Shown here in pieces: positions 18,327 to 33,064 of a stretch of 64,000 bases of DNA; the stretch's first letter is position 1, and every line of letters starts with the position of its first letter. The position numbers were made by a program, and so were the translations under genes. The DNA comes from Sinorhizobium fredii. GTDB lineage: Bacteria; Pseudomonadota; Alphaproteobacteria; Rhizobiales; Rhizobiaceae. The notes under the pieces were generated by a model, which was given only the letters and a program-made list of their open reading frames with translations, searched no databases and had not been told where the DNA came from. The stretch spans positions 1,880,501-1,944,500 of the forward strand of contig NZ_CP024307.1 in the NCBI RefSeq assembly GCF_002944405.1, read 5' to 3'.

Positions 18327-18740
18327 ATGAACATTCATGACTTCTTGAAGCTGCCGCATCGGTTCCGATGGGGCGGCCTCGGCGGCGATGACTGCATCAT
18401 GTTTTGCGCCTCGTGGGTCGCTGATCAGACGGGCGTCGATCCGGCAGAAAAGGTGAGGGGGACCTATCGGGATGAAGAGGGAGCGCTTGCGTTCGTCGAG
18501 CGCTCCGGCGGGCTGATCCCGATGATCGATAACGGCGTGATGCCGCTCGGCTACGCGCGGACCGATAGCCCGGTCACGGGCGATATCGGCGTAGTGCTCG
18601 TACCGTCCGACACCGACGGCAACGTCAAGGAGATCGGGGCGATCCGCTTCGGGCCTCTCTGGGCGGTTCTGGCGCCTGGCGGCGTCAGGGCGAAACGATA
18701 CGACTTCGTGGCGGCTTGGAGCCGGGGAGATCAGGATTGA
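18327..18740 (+). CDS. NlpC/P60-like tail tip protein (DUF6950-like)
   Basis: 137 residues from ATG 18327. The N-terminus RFRWGGLGGDDCIMFCASWVAD has the Cys of an NlpC/P60-type papain-like fold (GGDDCIMFCA at the start of the catalytic helix), and GDIGVVLV matches the strand that follows. In siphovirus tails the homologue (lambda gpK) is the plug peptidase that opens the tube. I see no clear catalytic His in the usual motif, so it may be a DUF6950-type relative with altered activity. The stop overlaps the next gene's TTG. Confidence 0.7.
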   Translation: MNIHDFLKLPHRFRWGGLGGDDCIMFCASWVADQTGVDPAEKVRGTYRDEEGALAFVERSGGLIPMIDNGVMPLGYARTDSPVTGDIGVVLVPSDTDGNVKEIGAIRFGPLWAVLAPGGVRAKRYDFVAAWSRGDQD

Positions 18741-20923
18741 GCTTCCATCATCGCATGATGCTGCAGCGCTACGGGCTGGGCTGCACGACATCGCTCTACA
18801 GCACGGTTCTTTTCGATCCGATCTTCACGCCGATCTTCACGGCACTGTTCACGCCGATCTTCGGTGCCGGTACCGCGCTGACGACCTTTGCCGTCGGCGC
18901 TGCATCTGCCATTGCAACCACGGCTTTAACGGTCGGCTTGCAATTGCTCCTCGCTCCAAGCGTCAAGACGCCGAAGCCCGAGGACGGCAAGGTTCCGAAG
19001 ACGCAGTCCATCCCTTACCGCTGGTGGGGCGTCGGCCGTACCCGCGTTGCCGGCGCCTACATGCTTTGGGAGGCGAAGGGCAACAAGCTCTATGCGGTGC
19101 AGGCGCTGGTCGGGCATCGCATCAAGGCGATCAACCGCTATTATCTTCATGACGACGAAGTGACGATCGGCGCCGGGAACTACGTGAACGGATTGGCCGA
19201 TGGACGCTATGGTGGCAACAAAGTCCGCCTCTACAGTCGTTTGGGTGAAACCCCTGAGACACCGTATTCAACGATCGTCGCCGGCATTCCGGAATCGTGG
19301 ACCAACAACCATCGCGGCGACGGCCAAGCCTCGGTGGCCATGATTGCGGCAACACCCGGGCAGAAGGATTTCAGCCAGCGGTTCCCCTACAATGCGCCGT
19401 CCGTCTCGGTTGAAGCGGACCTCGCCTACTGCTGGGATTTCCGCGACGAGGATCAGGACCCGGAAGATCCGTCGACATGGACCTGGACGCAGAATTGCGC
19501 CGTCATCCTCGCCTGGCATCTCTGCTTTAACGAGTTCGGGGAAAGGCTGGATTACACCAAGGCTATCTTGCCGGTGCTCAATCTCTGGATCGAGGAAGCC
19601 GACATCTGCGATGAAGACGTCCCGCTGGCCGGCGGCGGCACGGAGAAGCGCTACCAGTGCAACGGTTATGACACGACGGAGAATGGGCCCAAGGCCGCGA
19701 CAAACGCTATCCTGGCCGCCTGTGACGGGCATTTAGTGGCCCGGGGCGACGGGGCGCGCATCCTTACTGTCGGCAAGTTCAGGGAGAGCCGCTGCGGCGT
19801 CCTGACCGATGCGGATATCGTCGGGCACAACATCCAATATGACGTGCTCTTCGAGGACGAGATCAACCGCCTCATCCCCAAGTTCACCTATCCGGCGATC
19901 GACTACGCGACGGCAGACACGGACTATTTCGAGGATACCGACGCTCAATTGTCGGCCGGCCGGGTGCTCGCCCAGGAGGCCGAATACACCTGGGTTCACC
20001 AGTGGCGGCAAGCCCGCCGGCTGGGGAAGCGCGAGTGGCTCCGCATCCAGCAGAAGACGCGCGGCTCCATCGATGTCCGGCTCTCTGGCATCAACTCGGT
20101 CTACAACCGCTGGAATTTGCTGGAAACGCCGAAGCGGCTGCCGCGGCTTGATGGCAAGATCATTGAGAACCGCCGCGCACTGCTTTCGGTCACTCGTGGC
20201 GGCTTTACGATGGATATCGTCGAGCATCCCGACAACATCGACGCGTGGACGCCGGCAACCGATGAAGGGCAGCAGCCGCCGGTTCCTCCGGCGCCGAACC
20301 CAGCGGGGCTGGTGACACCGGTCATAAATCTGGTTCAGGCGAAGGCCAATTCCGGAAGCGTGTATATCCGGGTGGTGATCGTCGATCCAGACGACGACAG
20401 TCTGACGCCAACCGTACGGTATCGCGTGGCCGATGCTGACGGCCTCGGAAATCCAGGCGCATGGGTGGAGCAGAAGAATGAAGATGCGGCGCCTGCCGGC
20501 GGGTATGTCGACCTCGCTACGGCGGTCGTGCCAGCCGACAAGCTGCTCGACGTGCAAGCCGCGTTTATCGCGTCGAACGGCCGCTATTCCGATTGGTCGG
20601 TCACGGCGAACATCACATCGACTGTTGATTCCGTCGCGCCGGGAACGCCGACGAACCTGACGGCGCCGAACTCAGTCACCACGGTGCCGGTCAGCGCGAA
20701 AGCGGCAAACGACAACACCAGGTTCCTCATCTTCAAGCGCGGCACGACAGCGCAGAGCTTCGCCGCTGCAACGACGATCGGAACCTATTCGGTCACCGCT
20801 AACCAGACGATCTCGTTCAACGATACCCCTGGGGCGGGAACCTACAAATACTGGTGCGGCGCCGAGAACATCTCCGGCGTGCCATCAGCTTCGCAGGCGT
20901 CGGTAACGACCGTCGTCACCTAA
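18737..20923 (+). CDS. Tail central hub / J-like host specificity protein
   Basis: 728 residues from TTG 18737, which overlaps the preceding stop and has GGGGAG upstream; ATG 18716 is in frame but lies inside the previous gene. A hydrophobic Gly/Ala segment at residues 30-75 (TALTTFAVGAASAIATTALT) is typical of J-like proteins. The middle (QSIPYRWWGVGRTRVAGAYMLWE, WTQNCAVILAWHLC) builds the hub, and the end has fibronectin-like repeats after PPVPPAPNPAG. It anchors the fibre encoded next and closes the tail tube. Confidence 0.82.
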   Translation: MSFHHRMMLQRYGLGCTTSLYSTVLFDPIFTPIFTALFTPIFGAGTALTTFAVGAASAIATTALTVGLQLLLAPSVKTPKPEDGKVPKTQSIPYRWWGVGRTRVAGAYMLWEAKGNKLYAVQALVGHRIKAINRYYLHDDEVTIGAGNYVNGLADGRYGGNKVRLYSRLGETPETPYSTIVAGIPESWTNNHRGDGQASVAMIAATPGQKDFSQRFPYNAPSVSVEADLAYCWDFRDEDQDPEDPSTWTWTQNCAVILAWHLCFNEFGERLDYTKAILPVLNLWIEEADICDEDVPLAGGGTEKRYQCNGYDTTENGPKAATNAILAACDGHLVARGDGARILTVGKFRESRCGVLTDADIVGHNIQYDVLFEDEINRLIPKFTYPAIDYATADTDYFEDTDAQLSAGRVLAQEAEYTWVHQWRQARRLGKREWLRIQQKTRGSIDVRLSGINSVYNRWNLLETPKRLPRLDGKIIENRRALLSVTRGGFTMDIVEHPDNIDAWTPATDEGQQPPVPPAPNPAGLVTPVINLVQAKANSGSVYIRVVIVDPDDDSLTPTVRYRVADADGLGNPGAWVEQKNEDAAPAGGYVDLATAVVPADKLLDVQAAFIASNGRYSDWSVTANITSTVDSVAPGTPTNLTAPNSVTTVPVSAKAANDNTRFLIFKRGTTAQSFAAATTIGTYSVTANQTISFNDTPGAGTYKYWCGAENISGVPSASQASVTTVVT

Positions 20924-20992
20924 CAACAAGACACCCGTCCTTCCTTTCTTTGCTCTGGCCGCGCGCCGGAGCGCTACGCGCATGAGGAAAAT

Positions 20993-23314
20993 ATGGCCAA
21001 GACCGCAAGTGAAATTTGGGCAGATGGTCCGTCCAGCGATCCGTATCAGCCGCCGAAGGACGAGATCCGTGAATGGGGAGGGAGGCTGGAAACCGGCGGC
21101 TGGTCATTCGGCACTAAAGCCCTTGCTCAGGCCGCATCCGTGCCAGCCGATATCCACGTCATTAATCTGCTTGGCGGCACGTCTGTCGGCGATGGCCAAG
21201 GCGGCCAGTACATCGACACGAACAACGGCAGTTCCGACACTTTCACAACTGTGGCACCCAGTGCTCGCACTTGGTATCGCGCCGAGGATGTAGGCGTCGA
21301 TCGCCTCAGCAACGAAGCCGCCATTCGTAACTGGCTCGATCCGCTCAAGAACTTCAATGCCAACGGCACGACCGACGACACGGCGAACTTTGCCGCGCTC
21401 GAGGCCGTCATGACCGGTCGCGAGATCGATTGTAAGGGACTGGTCTTCAAAGTCACGGCCATCCCGACCGGAAACAACTATCGGCATGGTTTTTTCGCTA
21501 AGTCCAACGGCGAGGCGACCAACCCGAAAGACGTTCTCTATCCGATGGAAGGAACGTTTGTCGCTGAGAGTTACAAGCTCACCAGCAGCCGCCGCCACGA
21601 CGGCTGGCCACAGGACAAGTGGCACGAATACGACGGTGTCATATTCGCTGTCTGGAACCAGGGCTCAACGCACTCTTCTGACGACCTGCATGTGTGCATG
21701 GCGCGCTCCTACGATGGCGGCCGCACGTTCATCGATTTTGAGCGCCTGTTCCAGAAGACGGGACTGACGGGCGGCGTCACCTCCTGGGCCGCTGGTATTG
21801 TCGACGGCCAGCAGGTCGTTATCGTTCGAGAGAGTGAGACAGCCACGGAGCACCGTCTTTACTGCCGTCGCGTGGGGCAAAAGAAGAAGATTACGGCGAC
21901 GCTGTCCTCGCCGGCCAGCGGCACGGCAGGATGGGAGCTGATCTTTTCCAGGCACGGCTGCCGGTCTGGCAATAAAATCAAGTTCAACGCTAACGTATCG
22001 ATTGGCGGCACCACGATCGTTGCTGGCACCGAGTACACCGTTAGTAGCGGCAGTGCGACGCGCATCGTCTTTACCGGGCCTTCGTCATCCTCCGCTCAGA
22101 CGATCGCAGGCGACTATGTCATTGAGTTCGTCGAGAGCGGCTGGACGGAAATCAACTGGACTGGTGTTGCGCTCGGCACGCATTTGGTGAACACAAGTGC
22201 GGATCAAACCGGCCAGCCGACGATGTTTCACTCCTTCGCGGGGGTTCCGGCGAGCGGCGGCGATTTCTACACCTGCGTTCATGGCGGAGCGGCAACGGCG
22301 GGCCCGACTTTGATCATGATTACAGACCTGCTCAGCAACTCCCCGACGCTTGCAAAATATAACAAGATCACTACGGCTAATAGAGTCGAAGCAACTCTCG
22401 ACTACGATGAGGCGGACGGCTACCTGTATGGTTTCGGGCGGACACAATTTACTGACCAGTCGCCGCTTGCCTGGTGGTCGAGCGATGGCGGCGACACCTT
22501 CAACACCAACATCGGCGGTCCCGTCGGCGCGCTGCAGTATTCCCCGTTCCCTTGCAAGATCGTCGGCGACACGATCTACGCCTACGGCTCGGCGAACAGG
22601 GCAGGCACGGACGACGTCAGCGGCAACTACGTGAAGACGGAGGTTCCTCTCTATCTCTTCCGCGGGTCAAAGTCGGCGTTTCGGACCAACTACTGGGCGG
22701 CGCTGCAGATGATCGAAATCGGGACAGCCTACAAATACTCGGACTATGCTGGCCTGAATGTGGTCGGCGTTGGATCGATGGTTGTCTTTAATGGCAACCT
22801 GATCCTGGCGCACTCGACGGACAACGAAGACCCTGGCCTTGGAACTGGTATCCCAGACATTGAGATGGTCAGAATTCGCCTTGAGGACGAGGTGATCGAG
22901 GATCATGGGTATCAGAAGCTTGTCGGACGCTCGATTTCCGGAGGCGTGCCTGCCCTGGCGACGTACGATAAGCTTTATGCGGAGCGGGTGGTCGGGTCGT
23001 CGACCTTCCAGGCTGTGGCGCTGATCAACTCCGATGGCACGATTACATCCAACAGGGGAGGATTCGGGGTCACTTGCACGAAAGTTGGAACGGGTGACTA
23101 CACCGTCACGATAACGAACCCAAAAGCGACGACGCTCTATTTCCCGTTCGTTCAGCCGGTTGGCTCTGGCGCCCGTCGGCATGAGGTTTTGTCGCTTGCT
23201 GCGGGCAGCTTTAACGTGAAAACCTTCGGCTACAATAACGCCACGCCAACGGACAGCGCATTCGTGGTCGGGGTAATCATGCTTGAGGACTGGACGAGGA
23301 CGAGCTGGACGTGA
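20993..23314 (+). CDS. Tail fibre/spike with sialidase-like beta-propeller
   Basis: 773 residues. The N-terminus (ASEIWADGPSSDPYQPPKDE) is a phage tail-attachment segment also used by rhizobial tail fibres. The body contains two clear Asp-box motifs, SYDGGRTF near residue 239 and SSDGGDTF near residue 496, plus repeated beta-blade sequences, as in sialidase/endosialidase-type propellers of tail spikes. RLYCRRVGQKKK and VIVRESETATEHRL may lie near an active face. It is the receptor-binding protein and may cleave a capsular or K-antigen polysaccharide. Substrate is not determined. It lies next to a glycosyltransferase operon on the other strand. Confidence 0.78.
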   Translation: MAKTASEIWADGPSSDPYQPPKDEIREWGGRLETGGWSFGTKALAQAASVPADIHVINLLGGTSVGDGQGGQYIDTNNGSSDTFTTVAPSARTWYRAEDVGVDRLSNEAAIRNWLDPLKNFNANGTTDDTANFAALEAVMTGREIDCKGLVFKVTAIPTGNNYRHGFFAKSNGEATNPKDVLYPMEGTFVAESYKLTSSRRHDGWPQDKWHEYDGVIFAVWNQGSTHSSDDLHVCMARSYDGGRTFIDFERLFQKTGLTGGVTSWAAGIVDGQQVVIVRESETATEHRLYCRRVGQKKKITATLSSPASGTAGWELIFSRHGCRSGNKIKFNANVSIGGTTIVAGTEYTVSSGSATRIVFTGPSSSSAQTIAGDYVIEFVESGWTEINWTGVALGTHLVNTSADQTGQPTMFHSFAGVPASGGDFYTCVHGGAATAGPTLIMITDLLSNSPTLAKYNKITTANRVEATLDYDEADGYLYGFGRTQFTDQSPLAWWSSDGGDTFNTNIGGPVGALQYSPFPCKIVGDTIYAYGSANRAGTDDVSGNYVKTEVPLYLFRGSKSAFRTNYWAALQMIEIGTAYKYSDYAGLNVVGVGSMVVFNGNLILAHSTDNEDPGLGTGIPDIEMVRIRLEDEVIEDHGYQKLVGRSISGGVPALATYDKLYAERVVGSSTFQAVALINSDGTITSNRGGFGVTCTKVGTGDYTVTITNPKATTLYFPFVQPVGSGARRHEVLSLAAGSFNVKTFGYNNATPTDSAFVVGVIMLEDWTRTSWT

Positions 23315-23605
23315 TCAGTCCGGCTGGTAGCCCCACCTCTTATCGTCCTCTTCCTTCAGACGCCTCGCGAATTCCTCGGATTCTTCGGCCATTTTGTTGA
23401 AGTCCGGTTCATCATCTTCGGCCGGGGCCTGTTCAACGATTGCCAGCTGATCGTCGGACGAAAGCCAGTGGAGGAAGGCGAATGTAAGGGTCGATCCGGC
23501 GAGGCATATAGCCCCGCCGATCTCGCGGCCGGTAAGAACCATCGCCACCCCACACAGGCCCGTGAATATCGATGCATCGAGTGGCGTGATGAAGCGGGAA
23601 ATCAA
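23315..23605 (-). CDS. Small membrane protein of the glycosyltransferase operon
   Basis: 96 residues. Two hydrophobic stretches (SIFTGLCGVAMVLTGREIGG and AICLAGSTLTFAFLHWLSS) are followed by an acidic, charged tail (EDDEPDFNKMAEESEEFARRLKEEDDKR). Its start overlaps the stop of the glycosyltransferase gene (ATG at 23605, stop at 23602), so the two are translated together. Membrane partners are usual in phage serotype-conversion cassettes (GtrA-like), but there is no sequence evidence that this one is a flippase. It is convergent with the tail fibre gene, with adjacent stops. Confidence 0.68.
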   Translation of the reverse strand: MISRFITPLDASIFTGLCGVAMVLTGREIGGAICLAGSTLTFAFLHWLSSDDQLAIVEQAPAEDDEPDFNKMAEESEEFARRLKEEDDKRWGYQPD

Positions 23606-25275
23606 AGAATACCGATCCTCTTTAGCGTTCGATCCAGCGGCTTCGAAACCGCATCGGGCAACAGAATGTCACCCCATCTGACCACGGTTCTGCGGATGGG
23701 GCCATAGCCATTGAGACGCTTTTCGAAACTGATCTTCTTCTCTTCGGCTGTTTTGGCTGGCTTGCCGTTCTTGCCCCATCGTTTCGAGATGAAAGACTTG
23801 TTCATCCAGAAGGCATGCCGCCAGTCCTCTTTCTCCATGAAAGACGACCAGATAGCTTCGAGATGCGTAAACTCAGGCTTGCTCTGGAAGGTGTCCCACG
23901 GGTTTTCGCCTACGAAGTGGAGCACCTTCACATCGCTGATGTTGACGAGATTTGGGTGATGTACGGGCAGCCGCTTGAGCGTATTGTATTCGACAGGGAG
24001 CCACTTGACGTCCGCGGCGAACACCACGTTCAGAAAGCCTTGGTCACCGCCGTCTGAGCTATGGCTGTGGGGAATTGCCGAGAAGACGCGGTTCCGGAGG
24101 CTTTCCGAGGGGGTGAAGCTGAAAACGCCGCTGTTGAAAGCGATGTGCAGTTCCGATCCCCAGTCAGGTGCGGCAAGGAAGCCATCGAGACCGAACAAGT
24201 CGTCGATGTTCTTAAGCATGACGCAATCGGCATCGACGAAGGTAATGCGGTCGTAGTCGAGCAATTCGAAGACGCGGAGCTTTGTAAACGTGCCAGCGAA
24301 TCTCGATTGACCGTGATTATGCGGGTTGTCGATCGGGTCGACCTTCAAAGTCGACACATTGGGCAGGTGCCTCAAAAGCCGCGGGGTATAAGGGTCCGTA
24401 TGCATAACCAGCAATGGCACGTCGGACACGGTCGCCAGCGATCTGGCTAACGCCATAGCCCCTATCGCATAGCGGCCGTCTGCCATGGTGACATAGACGT
24501 TGCCCTTGTTGCCCGCTTGGATAGTTTTCGCTTCGGCACTGCGGACTTCCGTGCGGTTGAGGAACGGCGCCATGATCTCCATGCGGGATAGGCCGACCAA
24601 CTCGAACTCGTATTGATCCCGAATTGCGCGCAGGAAATGAAGGTCGAGGTCCAGGCTGTGCTTCTTTTCGTAGCCGGCGGCGACATCCTTCTCCTGCAGA
24701 TGCTGCCGGACAGTGTCCGGAACATCCCACGCGTATCGCTGCGACATGTCCGCATAGAGGTCGATACCCGAGATGTGGATCCTCTTGAACCCGAGGATCG
24801 CGGCCACGGCGATCATCTGCATTCCCTGGGTGGGCAGCGGCCTACCCATCATGAAGCGAGCTAGCGTCGGATTGGACGCGATCACCGCCCAGTGGTCAAA
24901 GTTCGGCATCAAGTGGGCGGCCGAGGCCGTCACGACCTTCTCGCGCAGGTCTGACGCTTGGAACGGCTGGAAAAACGCGTCGATCTTGTACTGGTCGAGC
25001 TTCTGGACTTCCTTCAGATTGTCGCGCAGTCCAGCGTTGTCCACGGACCAGAAGAAGCCGTCTACCCGATCGCCGTAGAATTTTTCCTGTTCGAGGAAGA
25101 ACCAATTGGCGCGGAAGATGACAGAATTCTCGGCCTGCTCGTCACTGAGGCGAACCTCGGCGGATGAGGGTCCGTTGCCGACGATGTAGCAATCCTGATG
25201 CAGGCGCCCCTCGAAATGGCGCTGGATACGGTCAATTTCGTGCGGAACTGAGAGGCTGTTCTTGGGGAAGGACAC
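23602..25275 (-). CDS. Two-domain glycosyltransferase: GT42 sialyltransferase-like + GT8
   Basis: 557 residues from GTG 25275 (AAGGAG 10 nt upstream); ATG 25311 is in frame but overlaps the previous gene by 80 nt. Residues about 27-260 resemble Campylobacter CST-type GT42 sialyltransferases: CYIVGNGPS (nucleotide site), [24 protein letters not shown] and the KHSLDLDL segment, which holds a His at the place of the GT42 catalytic base. Residues about 275-500 are GT8: [29 protein letters not shown] (DxD metal site, near 348), DQGFLNVVF and LHFVGENPW. It probably adds two sugars, one possibly a nonulosonic acid, to a surface glycan. Donor sugars are unknown. Confidence 0.85.
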
Positions 25276-25972
25276 CTGGAGTGATCTCCTTGGAGAGCGA
25301 GAGAGAGCCATTCTCGCTGGTTAGTTTCCATACGTCGGGCTTGAAGGGAGGAATCTCGCCCGACTCAATTCGGTCTAAAATTGAATGAACTTTGCGATAG
25401 TCGGGCCTGGAACTCCAGATTTTGAACTCCCACCACCGGGCGGCTTGTAGCCGTGCAATGGTAGTTTCGTCAAATCTGAATCTAATCACCTTGGCAGGTA
25501 CACCACCGACGACGGCATAGGGCGGGACATCCCTCGTCACTACCGCGTTAGCTGCGACGACCGCTCCATTGCCAATTCGAACGCCGCGCGTGATCACGGC
25601 GCCATCGCCAATCCAGACGTCATGGCCGATGACCGGTCGTGGTTTGGTTTCGAGTTTCTGGAAACGAAATTCCGAAGCCTCGGGCCAGAAGTTAAATTTT
25701 CGGGATCGGCCAAACTGGAACGGGTGATTGCTTATCCAGTCTGTCGGGTGATCGAACGGACCTATGATGACGCGTGGCGCGATCGAACAGAAGCGTCCGA
25801 TCTCAGCGCCGCAGATCTCGCCTGAAGGTCCGATGTAGGAATAGGCCCCGATCGTCGTCGGCTCGGATACTGGCGACATGAGGTTGACGGGGCTTTCGAA
25901 TGTGAGGGGAGCGCCAATGCCCTTGGCGCTCGCAACTGCCGCCCCGCAGGCTAGAAGATCGTCTCGGTTCAA
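25232..25972 (-). CDS. CatB-type hexapeptide O-acetyltransferase
   Basis: 246 residues from TTG 25972, chosen because GGAGGAG lies about 5 nt upstream; ATG 26050 is in frame but overlaps the divergent gene. The left-handed beta-helix hexapeptide repeats are plain ([62 protein letters not shown]), with the catalytic His in [11 protein letters not shown] and the family end [10 protein letters not shown]. These enzymes transfer acetyl from acetyl-CoA to sugars or small molecules. As first gene of an operon with a GT42-GT8 protein, it probably acetylates a surface polysaccharide. Confidence 0.83.
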
Positions 25973-26043
25973 AATTCTCCTCCCTCGCTTTGCACGGGGT
26001 GCCTCATAGCATATGACTCCCTTCGCGAAAGGGGAGAAATGGC

Positions 26044-26430
26044 ATGACACTTTCGGAATTGATCAAGCGGCTCGAGCGCGCGGAGAAGGTCGAGCGGATC
26101 TTTGACGGCGAGATTGGGGCGCTGCTTGGCTGGCGCCGCCAGGTCGATTACATCAAGAACGATGCGAACGGAGAACCGACCAAGCGGGTATTTTGGATTG
26201 TGCCTTCGAGCGACGATCCTGGCACAGTTCCGTTTTTTACGTCGTCGCTTGATGCCGCGGTCGACCTTATGAAGGCAATTGCCCCCGCTGATGTGTGGGG
26301 TGTTAGCATGGCAGACGGAACCGGAACCGCCATCATCGGGTCGGGCCCCTATTGTCACGCTCCGACGCCAGCCATGGCGCTGTGCATAGCGGCTCTCAAG
26401 GCGAAGTTGATGAGAGAAGGCGACAAGTGA
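26044..26430 (+). CDS. Phage hypothetical protein (ABA-sandwich-like)
   Basis: 128 residues. N-terminal helix [20 protein letters not shown] with [11 protein letters not shown], then [22 protein letters not shown] and a C-terminal [22 protein letters not shown]. This order (short helix, beta strands, PyC.A.TPA.AL..A.L) is the 'phage ABA sandwich' pattern seen next to lysis or lysogeny genes in rhizobial prophages. Function unknown. Divergent from the acetyltransferase operon and probably the first gene of the rightward lysis region. Confidence 0.68.
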
Positions 26431-26440
26431 CGCTGATCGG

Positions 26441-26469
26441 TTGAGTCAACACTGAGAATGGCCTATGGA
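26441..26469 (+). promoter_or_regulatory. Possible sigma70-type promoter before H-NS-like gene
   Basis: TTGAGT, 17 nt, TATGGA lies 31 nt upstream of the H-NS-like start. The spacing is ideal and the hexamers fair. Because phage promoters in rhizobia vary, this is only a candidate. Confidence 0.35.
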
Positions 26470-26499
26470 CTCCGGCGGTTTTAAAGTTCGAGGCCGCGA

Positions 26500-26787
26500 A
26501 TGAGCAACATAGACTTCTCTTCCCTCACCATCGAAGAAATCGATGCCGCTCTAGAAGAGCTGCCGAAGCTCAGAAAGATCAAGGTTGAAGCGCGTCGCGC
26601 CGAACTCTTGGAAGAACTACAGAGGCTCGGTGGCCTTCCAAAGCGGATGCCGGTTCGCATGCCCCCAAAATTTCGGGATGACAAAGGCAACACGTGGACA
26701 GGTCAGGGGACAACTCCGATCTGGATCAGGGAACTGGAAGAGGCCGGTGGCAGTCGAGAGCAATACCGGATTAAGAAAAAGGACTGA
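26500..26787 (+). CDS. Compact H-NS-like nucleoid protein
   Basis: 95 residues. Residues 1-45 form a helical/coiled oligomerisation segment (TIEEIDAALEELPKLRKIKV, then EARRAELLEELQRL). Residues about 58-90 carry the H-NS DNA-binding pattern: KFRDDKGNTWTGQGTTPIWI, with the W-T/S-G-x-G-x-x-P-x-W loop that contacts the AT-rich minor groove. At 95 residues it is shorter than typical H-NS. A prophage-borne copy could silence the AT-richer accessory genes or interfere with host silencers. A good intrinsic terminator follows. Confidence 0.77.
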   Translation: MSNIDFSSLTIEEIDAALEELPKLRKIKVEARRAELLEELQRLGGLPKRMPVRMPPKFRDDKGNTWTGQGTTPIWIRELEEAGGSREQYRIKKKD

Positions 26788-26803
26788 AAGCCCCTCGTCC
26801 TTG

Positions 26804-26829
26804 AAGCCCCGCTTAGGCGGGGTTTTTTA
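26804..26829 (+). terminator. Rho-independent terminator
   Basis: CCCCGC-TTAG-GCGGGG stem-loop followed by TTTTTT, 17 nt after the H-NS-like gene. One of the strongest intrinsic terminators in the window; it isolates this gene from the lysis genes. Confidence 0.88.
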
Positions 26830-26874
26830 TTGCCAATAGGGCAGACACATCATCCTCCAACGATCAGGTGAACA

Positions 26875-27609
26875 ATGGCAAATCGCAAGCGCACGACGCT
26901 TGGGGTCGTGCACGTTACTGCCACGCCGCCAGGCTGGGACAAGGGCGTCGCCGGCATCCGAGCAATTCATAAGGCTCAGGGCTGGTCCGACATCGGCTAT
27001 AACGAGATCATCAATGCGGACGGTCGTGCCGAGATCGGCCGCGGCAAGATGGCGATCGGCGCCCATGTCGCCGGCTTCAACTCGATCTCCTACGGCTTGG
27101 CGATGGTCGGCGGGGTAGACGCCTCCGGCCGGCCGGACGTGAACACGCTCAAGAATGCGCAGTTCGCCACGCTGGAAAGGCGGATGCGCGAGCTGTTGGA
27201 GGAATTTCCCGACATCAAGTGGTGCGGCCACCGGGATCTGTCACCGGACAAGAACGGCAATGGCGTGATCGAGCCGTTCGAGCACATCAAGGCATGCCCG
27301 TGCTTTGACGTCATCCCCTGGGCCGCGGCGAAGGGTCTCCCGGTCGCCGATATCCGGGGCAACTGGAAGCCGATCGTCATCGAAAACAAACCGGTGATCG
27401 AGGGGCCAGACACTCGCACTGCTTACCTGCAGCGGCTGCTCGTCCGGGACGGCTATGCCCTCGGCCCGATCGACGGCATCGTCGGCAGGAAAACCCGTGC
27501 CGCCATCCGCGCCTTCCAACTCGCCTCAAACCTGCCCGAAAGCGGCGACTTCGACGCCCCGACGGTCAGCAAACTCCGCCTCCTCTTCGAAGCCAAGGCT
27601 ACGGCCTAA
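26875..27609 (+). CDS. Endolysin: N-acetylmuramoyl-L-alanine amidase with PG-binding domain
   Basis: 244 residues. Residues 1-150 are a T7-lysozyme-like amidase_2 domain: zinc ligands H13 (VVHVTATP), the His in WCGHRDLSPD and the Cys of IKACPCFDV, with the conserved Tyr in IGYNEII and Lys in IKAC. Residues about 180-240 (AYLQRLLVRDGYALGPIDGI, then KTRAAIRAFQLASNLP) are a PG_binding_1 repeat. It cleaves the amide bond between muramic acid and the stem peptide at lysis. No signal peptide, so a holin or other export route is needed; a candidate lies two genes downstream. Confidence 0.9.
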   Translation: MANRKRTTLGVVHVTATPPGWDKGVAGIRAIHKAQGWSDIGYNEIINADGRAEIGRGKMAIGAHVAGFNSISYGLAMVGGVDASGRPDVNTLKNAQFATLERRMRELLEEFPDIKWCGHRDLSPDKNGNGVIEPFEHIKACPCFDVIPWAAAKGLPVADIRGNWKPIVIENKPVIEGPDTRTAYLQRLLVRDGYALGPIDGIVGRKTRAAIRAFQLASNLPESGDFDAPTVSKLRLLFEAKATA

Positions 27610-31256: not shown

Positions 31257-31298
31257 GGGGATTTGCAGTCCTCTGCGTCACCACTCCGCCACGAGGCC
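31257..31298 (-). tRNA. tRNA-Cys(GCA) 5' half: prophage attachment site remnant
   Basis: Read on the minus strand, the sequence from 31298 has an acceptor strand GGCCTCG, a D-arm with GCG...CGC around GAGTGGTGA, the anticodon stem GAGGA and the loop CTGCAAA with anticodon GCA. After the anticodon loop the 3' stem is imperfect and there is no T-arm or acceptor 3' strand. So only the 5' half of a tRNA-Cys gene remains, as expected at the att site of a phage that inserts in the anticodon arm. The full tRNA should lie at the other prophage end, outside the window. Confidence 0.72.
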
Positions 31299-31563
31299 TC
31301 TCGTGCTCGTAAAATCGAGCGATGGCGGGCGTTTAAAACGAATCCATGTGGAGCGCAAGAGGGAGACGTTCAAAAAAGACGCCCACAAACAGCTTTGAAC
31401 AGGCCGGAATACGAGAGCGCTTCTTGCCGGTGGCATGGCGGACGCCGAGACCAATAAACGCCGGCCGCAGTAAGCGAGATCACGGAAGGCAAAGAGAACA
31501 GTTCTGTCGTCGCGACCGCGCGAAACGACCGCACACAGGATCGGCACAGGAACCCAAATCGGC

Positions 31564-32988: not shown

Positions 32989-33064
32989 TGGTGGAGTCGA
33001 AGGGAGTCGAACCCTCGACCTCCGCAGTGCGATTGCGGCGCTCTCCCAACTGAGCTACGACCCC
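32989..33064 (-). tRNA. tRNA-Ala(CGC)
   Basis: Complete 76-nt cloverleaf on the minus strand: acceptor GGGGTCG pairs with CGACTCC (one G-T), D-arm GCTC/GAGC, anticodon stem CCGCA/TGCGG with loop ATCGCAC (anticodon CGC, reads GCG), T-arm GAGGG-TTCGACT-CCCTT and encoded CCA. Confidence 0.92.

Follow-up and report, generated by a model that had tools for sequence, protein, structure and literature searches.

A candidate K-antigen conversion cassette beside an endosialidase-fold tailspike in a Sinorhizobium fredii prophage

A prophage of Sinorhizobium fredii contains a three-gene operon with which the temperate phage probably converts the K-antigen (capsule) of its host. The operon codes for an acetyltransferase, a glycosyltransferase with fused GT42 and GT8 domains and a small protein, TM96, and it lies beside a tailspike gene. 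The original prediction had proposed a surface conversion system, an idea which location and gene content support; the surface change, the substrates, the polymer and the exclusion of other phages are what we infer.

The prophage and its three-gene operon

Positions are those of the window, the whole stretch of 64,000 nucleotides that was analysed:

18716..20923, plus strand: central tail protein (J-like); phrog_5616, E 2.5e-196; 84% to phiLM21
20993..23314, plus strand: tailspike with an endosialidase-fold beta-propeller (residues about 160-638); profile, single-sequence search and predicted structure
23315..23605, minus strand: TM96, 96 aa, operon gene 3; ORF and hydropathy
23602..25311, minus strand: GT42-GT8 fusion glycosyltransferase, 569-aa ORF
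23794..24510, minus strand: GT8 domain, residues 268-506, DAD at 360-362
24526..25200, minus strand: GT42 (CST-like) domain, residues 38-262 of the 569-aa ORF
25232..25972, minus strand: CatB/Vat-like hexapeptide acetyltransferase, left-handed beta-helix, operon gene 1; PF00132
26044..26430, plus strand: X128, small protein accompanying the cassette; homologues near GT42-GT8
26500..26787, plus strand: H-NS C-terminal domain protein of the prophage; PF00816, E 1e-11
26875..27609, plus strand: amidase endolysin, the lysis marker closing the slot; phrog_822, E 7e-43
31259..31335, no strand: right attachment-site-like repeat; partner at C1:1861835-1861911, overlapping tRNA-Cys

The location in a prophage is borne out by a full late-gene module, by attachment-site-like repeats and by a CI-like repressor gene, found upstream of the window together with a RecT-like gene. 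The repeats (window 31259..31335 and L002:835-911) are 77 bp long and 98.7% identical; they suggest prophage limits about 50.0 kb apart. A tRNA-Ala gene (32989-33064) was considered as attachment site and rejected: The 77-bp repeat at tRNA-Cys is a better fit. No integrase was identified in the prophage, and the ORF called beside the left repeat, which may be in the wrong frame, has no Pfam or PHROG match. A gene for a C-5 cytosine DNA methylase (PF00145) is found at L002:11048-13147, within the prophage and upstream of the window.

The three overlapping minus-strand genes first described are real, all three frames being open in our ORF calls, and their organisation as an operon stands. They are oriented opposite to the surrounding late genes, between the tailspike gene and the lysis region. 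The acetyltransferase has a TTG start preceded by GGAGGAG. The likelier start of the fusion is the GTG at 25275, preceded by AAGGAG, which yields 557 aa as in close relatives, and the TM96 gene overlaps the stop of the fusion gene by 4 nt. No sigma-70-like promoter was found in positions 22900-26300, where 1.3 are expected, which counts against the conversion reading as far as expression in the lysogen goes. The H-NS C-terminal domain protein coded beside the cassette is a candidate silencer of the operon. NeuO-type phase variation of the cassette was considered and rejected, with 0 tandem repeats in 20900-27000.

Both domains of the fusion are backed by profile, sequence and structure. The N-terminal domain is GT42, as predicted: It scores 48 bits against PF06002 (cut-off 25), with the CST fold and the conserved active-site residues. 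The GT8 identity of the other domain is likewise confirmed by profile, DxD motif and GT8 fold. The fusion had looked new in a soil rhizobium. A search for the fusion gives 173 database matches, and we have rejected novelty: Both Pfam domains are present in 114 of the 120 matches listed. The fusion was not found in 50,697 phage records. The database entry P0008 is the window's own fusion as a 443-aa N-truncated form, which lacks much of GT42 and is probably an annotation error in the start codon. Other phage copies keep the motif residues, their GT domains being 67-92% identical to those of the window. The phage copies are divided between two separate clades, both starred, although branching close to the window copy has no star; phages and bacteria may accordingly have exchanged the gene more than once.

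The acetyltransferase is CatB/Vat-like by PDB sequence matches. A drug-resistance reading of this likeness was rejected because the 25 NCBIfam matches listed, of 42, are all below cut-off. In L009, the closest phage relative, the acetyltransferase match (L009:4881-5128) is limited to the C-terminal 69 residues although GT42-GT8 and TM96 are both present, and this phage may therefore do without acetylation.

TM96 has two hydrophobic N-terminal stretches followed by an acidic tail, judging by hydropathy, and its Pfam and NCBIfam matches are weak, under cut-off. There is one copy in its own genome. In a tblastn search of 205 sequences (3.3 Mb), the only matches besides window copies are in two phage contigs, L009 (61%; L145 is the same contig) and L184 (42%), each time adjoining GT42-GT8.

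The small protein X128 matches no Pfam or PHROG family at 0.1. Homologues are found near GT42-GT8 in L009, L012, L076 and S. meliloti ml28. Copies at L075:1357-1712, L077:13423-14187 and L012:1296-1670 are beside cassettes in phages and K-antigen loci, and the copy in the host K-antigen locus looks frameshifted. X128 may be a marker of past exchange between phages and capsule loci.

The tailspike and the variable slot

Neither the adjacent tailspike nor the variable slot described below was part of the original prediction. The predicted structure of the tailspike has the endosialidase beta-propeller fold. This assignment rests on a single-sequence search and on a structure predicted from an alignment without K1F or CUS-3; a profile search whose alignment held both was set aside as circular. 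The candidate catalytic residues are E466, R483 and R536. E466 and R483 are invariant in 12 alignment rows and align with K1F E581 and R596, which we take to be catalytic. R536 is invariant in 9 rows, yet the MAFFT alignment places it one column off K1F R647. The N-terminal extension domain (PF12218) scores 19.3 bits, the cut-off being 26.3. The tailspike ends where the C-terminal extension of K1F and CUS-3 starts and has no Pfam domain of that kind: Because this chaperone region is missing, we speak of an endosialidase fold rather than of an endosialidase. The tailspike was not found in plasmid records. Its annotated matches are from Escherichia phages, by name, in 103 of the 120 records listed.

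Related phages were surveyed with the J-like tail protein as anchor, which is present in 12 of 394 Rhizobiaceae genomes, this one included, and in phiLM21 among named phages. The DNA after J was oriented and its ORFs, from a simple ORF caller, were clustered. The best 80 of 91 IMG/VR loci, the window and 12 genome stretches make 93 oriented loci; 7 have no usable tailspike ORF, which leaves 86, 75 of them non-redundant. L101 is outside these counts. A lysis marker is present in 61 of the 86 loci. Five clusters were used as such: 154 (the window's amidase), 17 (endolysin match), 9 (phage-lysozyme match), 0 (based on the phiLM21 'chitinase-like' gene and a weak peptidoglycan-binding match) and 21 (assigned by position).

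The stretch from the tailspike to the lysis genes, the slot, is highly variable among these relatives. A gene of the GT42-GT8, polysialyltransferase (PF07388), KpsM-like or KpsC/S-like type is found in 11 of the 75 non-redundant slot loci, or in 9 of 73 without the window and L099, both of which were reached via query proteins. The L151 slot combines an endosialidase-type tailspike with polysialyltransferase and KpsM, that of L099 the same type of tailspike with polysialyltransferase, and that of L184 has GT42-GT8, TM96, GT4 and KpsM. Matches to the tblastn seeds are found after J in 13 of 80 loci (three with the acetyltransferase alone) and within up to 10 kb before J in none of 80, a difference which is partly by construction, some seeds coming from the slots of the window, L099, L100 and L101. 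Seeds from the host K-antigen locus alone match 8 of the 80 IMG/VR loci after J and none of the 80 before J; L126 and L189 are near copies.

Among 76 unrelated cluster representatives, counted per family and not per locus, the 25 Pfam families listed, of 61, include FkbM methyltransferase (7), GT2 (5), Capsule_synth (3), GT8 (3), polysialyltransferase (2) and GSCFA (2), and sulfotransferase and CDP-glycerol transferase with one member each. Non-glycan families, such as AAA ATPases, are also found. KpsC/S-like genes are present in the slots of L126, L132, L138, L143 and L189. A 742-aa GT8-Capsule_synth fusion is coded at L101:2590-4818.

Tailspikes and transferases tend to go together. Six loci have endosialidase-type tailspikes, and 4 of them contain a GT42 or polysialyltransferase gene, against 2 of the 69 others (p 1.8e-4). 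Without the window and L099 the numbers are small, 2 of 4 against 2 of 69 (p 0.013). L142 and L169 have such a tailspike and no recognised sialyl-type glycosyltransferase, L142 having 2.6 kb of DNA past the tailspike. The reverse is found in L184 and L100.

Capsule loci and nonulosonate genes

According to PMC8227245, the repeat unit of Sinorhizobium K-antigens is typically a disaccharide in which one residue is Kdo or Kdo-like. In S. meliloti ml28, pSymB carries homologues of X128 (63%), the acetyltransferase (71%) and GT42-GT8 (78%), in the same order as in the prophage. These genes directly adjoin those for a DUF6716 glycosyltransferase, a CMP-nonulosonate synthetase (acylneuraminate cytidylyltransferase), NeuB, a KpsS-like capsule protein and an ABC permease. 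By annotation, the right flank (permease, hydroxymethyltransferase, oxidoreductase, ferredoxin, desaturase) is like that of the K-antigen locus in strain RCAM1115, where RkpR is found on the opposite side. Neither the tailspike nor TM96 was found in the ml28 locus by tblastn.

The host has a comparable locus on its 1.7-Mb contig C4, with NeuB, a cytidylyltransferase-phosphatase fusion, DUF6716, KpsC/S-like proteins and a permease; 14 of the 15 best plasmid matches listed for it are from Sinorhizobium. Identity with ml28 is 95% for NeuB, 85% for the synthetase, 76% for DUF6716, 73% for the KpsS-like protein and 80% for the permease. A methyltransferase, a GT4 and a Capsule_synth gene are found in place of the acetyltransferase and fusion of ml28. 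The only PF06002 match in the host genome is the prophage fusion: The donor genes are therefore in the host and the transferase in the phage. The host synthetase and NeuB score below the cut-offs of specific NCBIfam models. The phosphatase part of the synthetase resembles KDN-9-phosphatase, under the cut-off of that model, and our guess from this domain is that the host sugar may be Kdn; Neu5Ac or another nonulosonate would also be possible.

A wider genome collection gives 58 loci, divided by the range of the query matched by tblastn: 23 match over both domains and 35 over GT8 only. A gene for NeuB or CMP-nonulosonate synthetase is found in the flanks of 15 of the 23 fusion loci and of 1 of the 35 GT8-only loci (p 2e-7, a value which ignores relatedness, many fusion loci being from Promicromonospora and its kin, and differences in flank length). 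In the other 8 fusion loci, the retrieved flanks contain no nonulosonate gene. These neighbours are supportive of the transfer of a nonulosonate from a CMP donor by the GT42 domain. Actinobacterial GT42-GT8 genes near NeuB and/or CMP-nonulosonate synthetase genes are found in L014, L016-L022, L028-L030 and L033; this actinobacterial family may build Kdn-type cell-wall polymers.

Conversion, alternatives and known systems

The original prediction left the target as K-antigen or LPS. The K-antigen, that is, the rkp-3 capsule, is the likelier of the two and LPS the less likely, because the gene pair is found inside the ml28 K-antigen locus and nonulosonate genes are found near fusions. The infecting phage would use, and probably cleave, a nonulosonate-containing K-antigen with its tailspike, to judge by the predicted endosialidase fold and the candidate catalytic residues. 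In the lysogen, the GT42 domain would take a CMP-nonulosonate supplied by the host NeuB and CMP-nonulosonate synthetase, the GT8 domain would take a UDP-hexose, and between them the two domains would assemble or modify a K-antigen of hexose and nonulosonate. O-acetylation by the acetyltransferase would follow. TM96 may assist or block the resident machinery. The capsule of the lysogen would no longer fit the tailspike and related phages would adsorb poorly.

Processive repeat synthesis, as by an ABC-dependent (group 2) capsule polymerase, would fit both the domain logic and the locus context. It is possible, if doubtful, that GT42-GT8 is a self-contained K-antigen polymerase, making a repeat of nonulosonate and hexose; it would then be the type of enzyme still wanting for the disaccharide K-antigens that Sinorhizobium makes. 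Rhizobial temperate phages would shuttle such enzymes, as well as KpsM exporters and KpsC/S lipid-anchor enzymes, in a slot whose contents are exchanged and which is coupled to the tailspike, and TM96 would shut down the resident polymerase. If so, strain-specific K-antigen types would be partly phage-written. The inhibitory role of TM96, like that of Iap in phage D3, is speculation by analogy.

The fusion might instead decorate the LPS core or O-antigen with a terminal nonulosonate and a hexose, acetylated, which would still be surface conversion. We give this a low probability. Campylobacter Cst enzymes act on lipooligosaccharide, and one PDB match of the GT42 domain is named lipooligosaccharide sialyltransferase; against this, the gene pair is part of the ml28 K-antigen locus and phage slots contain KpsM- and KpsC/S-like genes, whose roles are in the export and anchoring of capsules. 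A gene of the phi3LM21 prophage is also described as an LPS glycosyltransferase (PMC5537653). It is unlikely that the cassette makes or keeps the receptor, lysogens showing the polymer recognised by the tailspike and thus favouring capsule-bearing hosts or virion release. The association between sialyl-type transferases and endosialidase-type tailspikes fits the same polymer and an altered one equally well, but the characterised precedents, NeuO of CUS-3 and phage D3, alter the receptor and lower phage attack.

Cargo for the plant interface or for general fitness, where a K-antigen change would serve nodulation or dealings with protists and not phage exclusion, seems improbable: K-antigens do matter in symbiosis, according to PMC8227245, but the position at the tailspike and the co-variation with it suggest phage-centred selection. 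Most improbable is that the cassette is a mere passenger, made up of capsule genes which are silent or in decay and were picked up through recombination at a hot spot. The lack of a promoter match in the operon region and the short acetyltransferase match in L009 agree with decay; the three open frames, and the preservation of the fusion's motif residues and of TM96 in other phage copies, do not.

K-antigen conversion, the reading we prefer, would provide a testable case in which one phage combines a tailspike that is a candidate for capsule recognition with enzymes able, in principle, to rewrite the capsule, in a plant symbiont whose K-antigen type affects symbiosis and phage sensitivity. The fusion is a candidate polymerase for nonulosonate-containing K-antigens, and endosialidase-fold tailspikes are extended beyond the Escherichia phages that dominate annotated matches. 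According to PMC5429615, natural isolates of S. meliloti in which the rkp-3 region had been replaced had an altered K-antigen and were phage resistant. Our results suggest that exchange with prophages is one of the forces behind rkp-3 differences between strains.

Prophage surface conversion, the combination of tailspike and acetyltransferase (CUS-3) and prophage capsule polymerases (PMC13228068) are already known. NeuO has a left-handed beta-helix fold (PMC3046976), and its acetylation is described as protecting E. coli K1 from K1 phage (PMC13001214, PMC9659370). The temperate E. coli phage CUS-3 has a similar cassette, with the endosialidase tailspike gene siaK1 beside the acetyltransferase gene neuO. 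The Sinorhizobium cassette differs in adding GT42-GT8 and TM96, in lacking a tandem repeat and in its soil-rhizobium host. The window tailspike is 25.7% identical to that of CUS-3 over 55% of its length. The acetyltransferase of the window has the hexapeptide profile, but it is CatB/Vat-like and has no phase-variable repeat; no chain named NeuO is found among its PDB matches at E 1e-10.

The seroconversion unit of Pseudomonas phage D3 also has three genes, but it uses Wzy for O-antigen. Its third gene codes for an acetylase. According to PMC4815439, the unit supplies Wzy-beta as new polymerase together with Iap, which inhibits the previous polymerase, and conversion is accompanied by resistance to other phages. 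In our cassette, the polymerising candidate is instead the two-domain GT42-GT8, for a probably ABC-exported K-antigen, and there is no Wzy-type integral-membrane polymerase. The capsule polymerase of Neisseria meningitidis serogroup W belongs to other GT families and is chromosomal. Acinetobacter prophages with wzy1Ph or wzy2Ph alter the capsule by a replacement capsule-building enzyme; this is a Wzy linkage swap, and the abstract of PMC13228068 mentions neither a sialyl-type glycosyltransferase nor a link to a tailspike.

In the open-access literature searched, we have found no capsule-polymerase cassettes beside tailspikes in rhizobial phages. The main text of a 2025 survey of phiLM21-like prophages (PMC12429752) contains none of the terms glycosyltransferase, capsule, K-antigen, superinfection, polysaccharide or receptor. 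For such prophages, a 2017 paper on LM21 (PMC5537653) does describe FkbM methyltransferases, as well as a glycosyltransferase of LPS type. The phiLM21-like phages share the tail module, J being 84% identical, but phiLM21 itself has an FkbM methyltransferase in the slot after the second tail fibre, and its annotation shows no GT42 there. A further parallel is the rkp-3 variant of ml28: It has the same pair of acetyltransferase and GT42-GT8 in the same order, but on pSymB, in a capsule locus.
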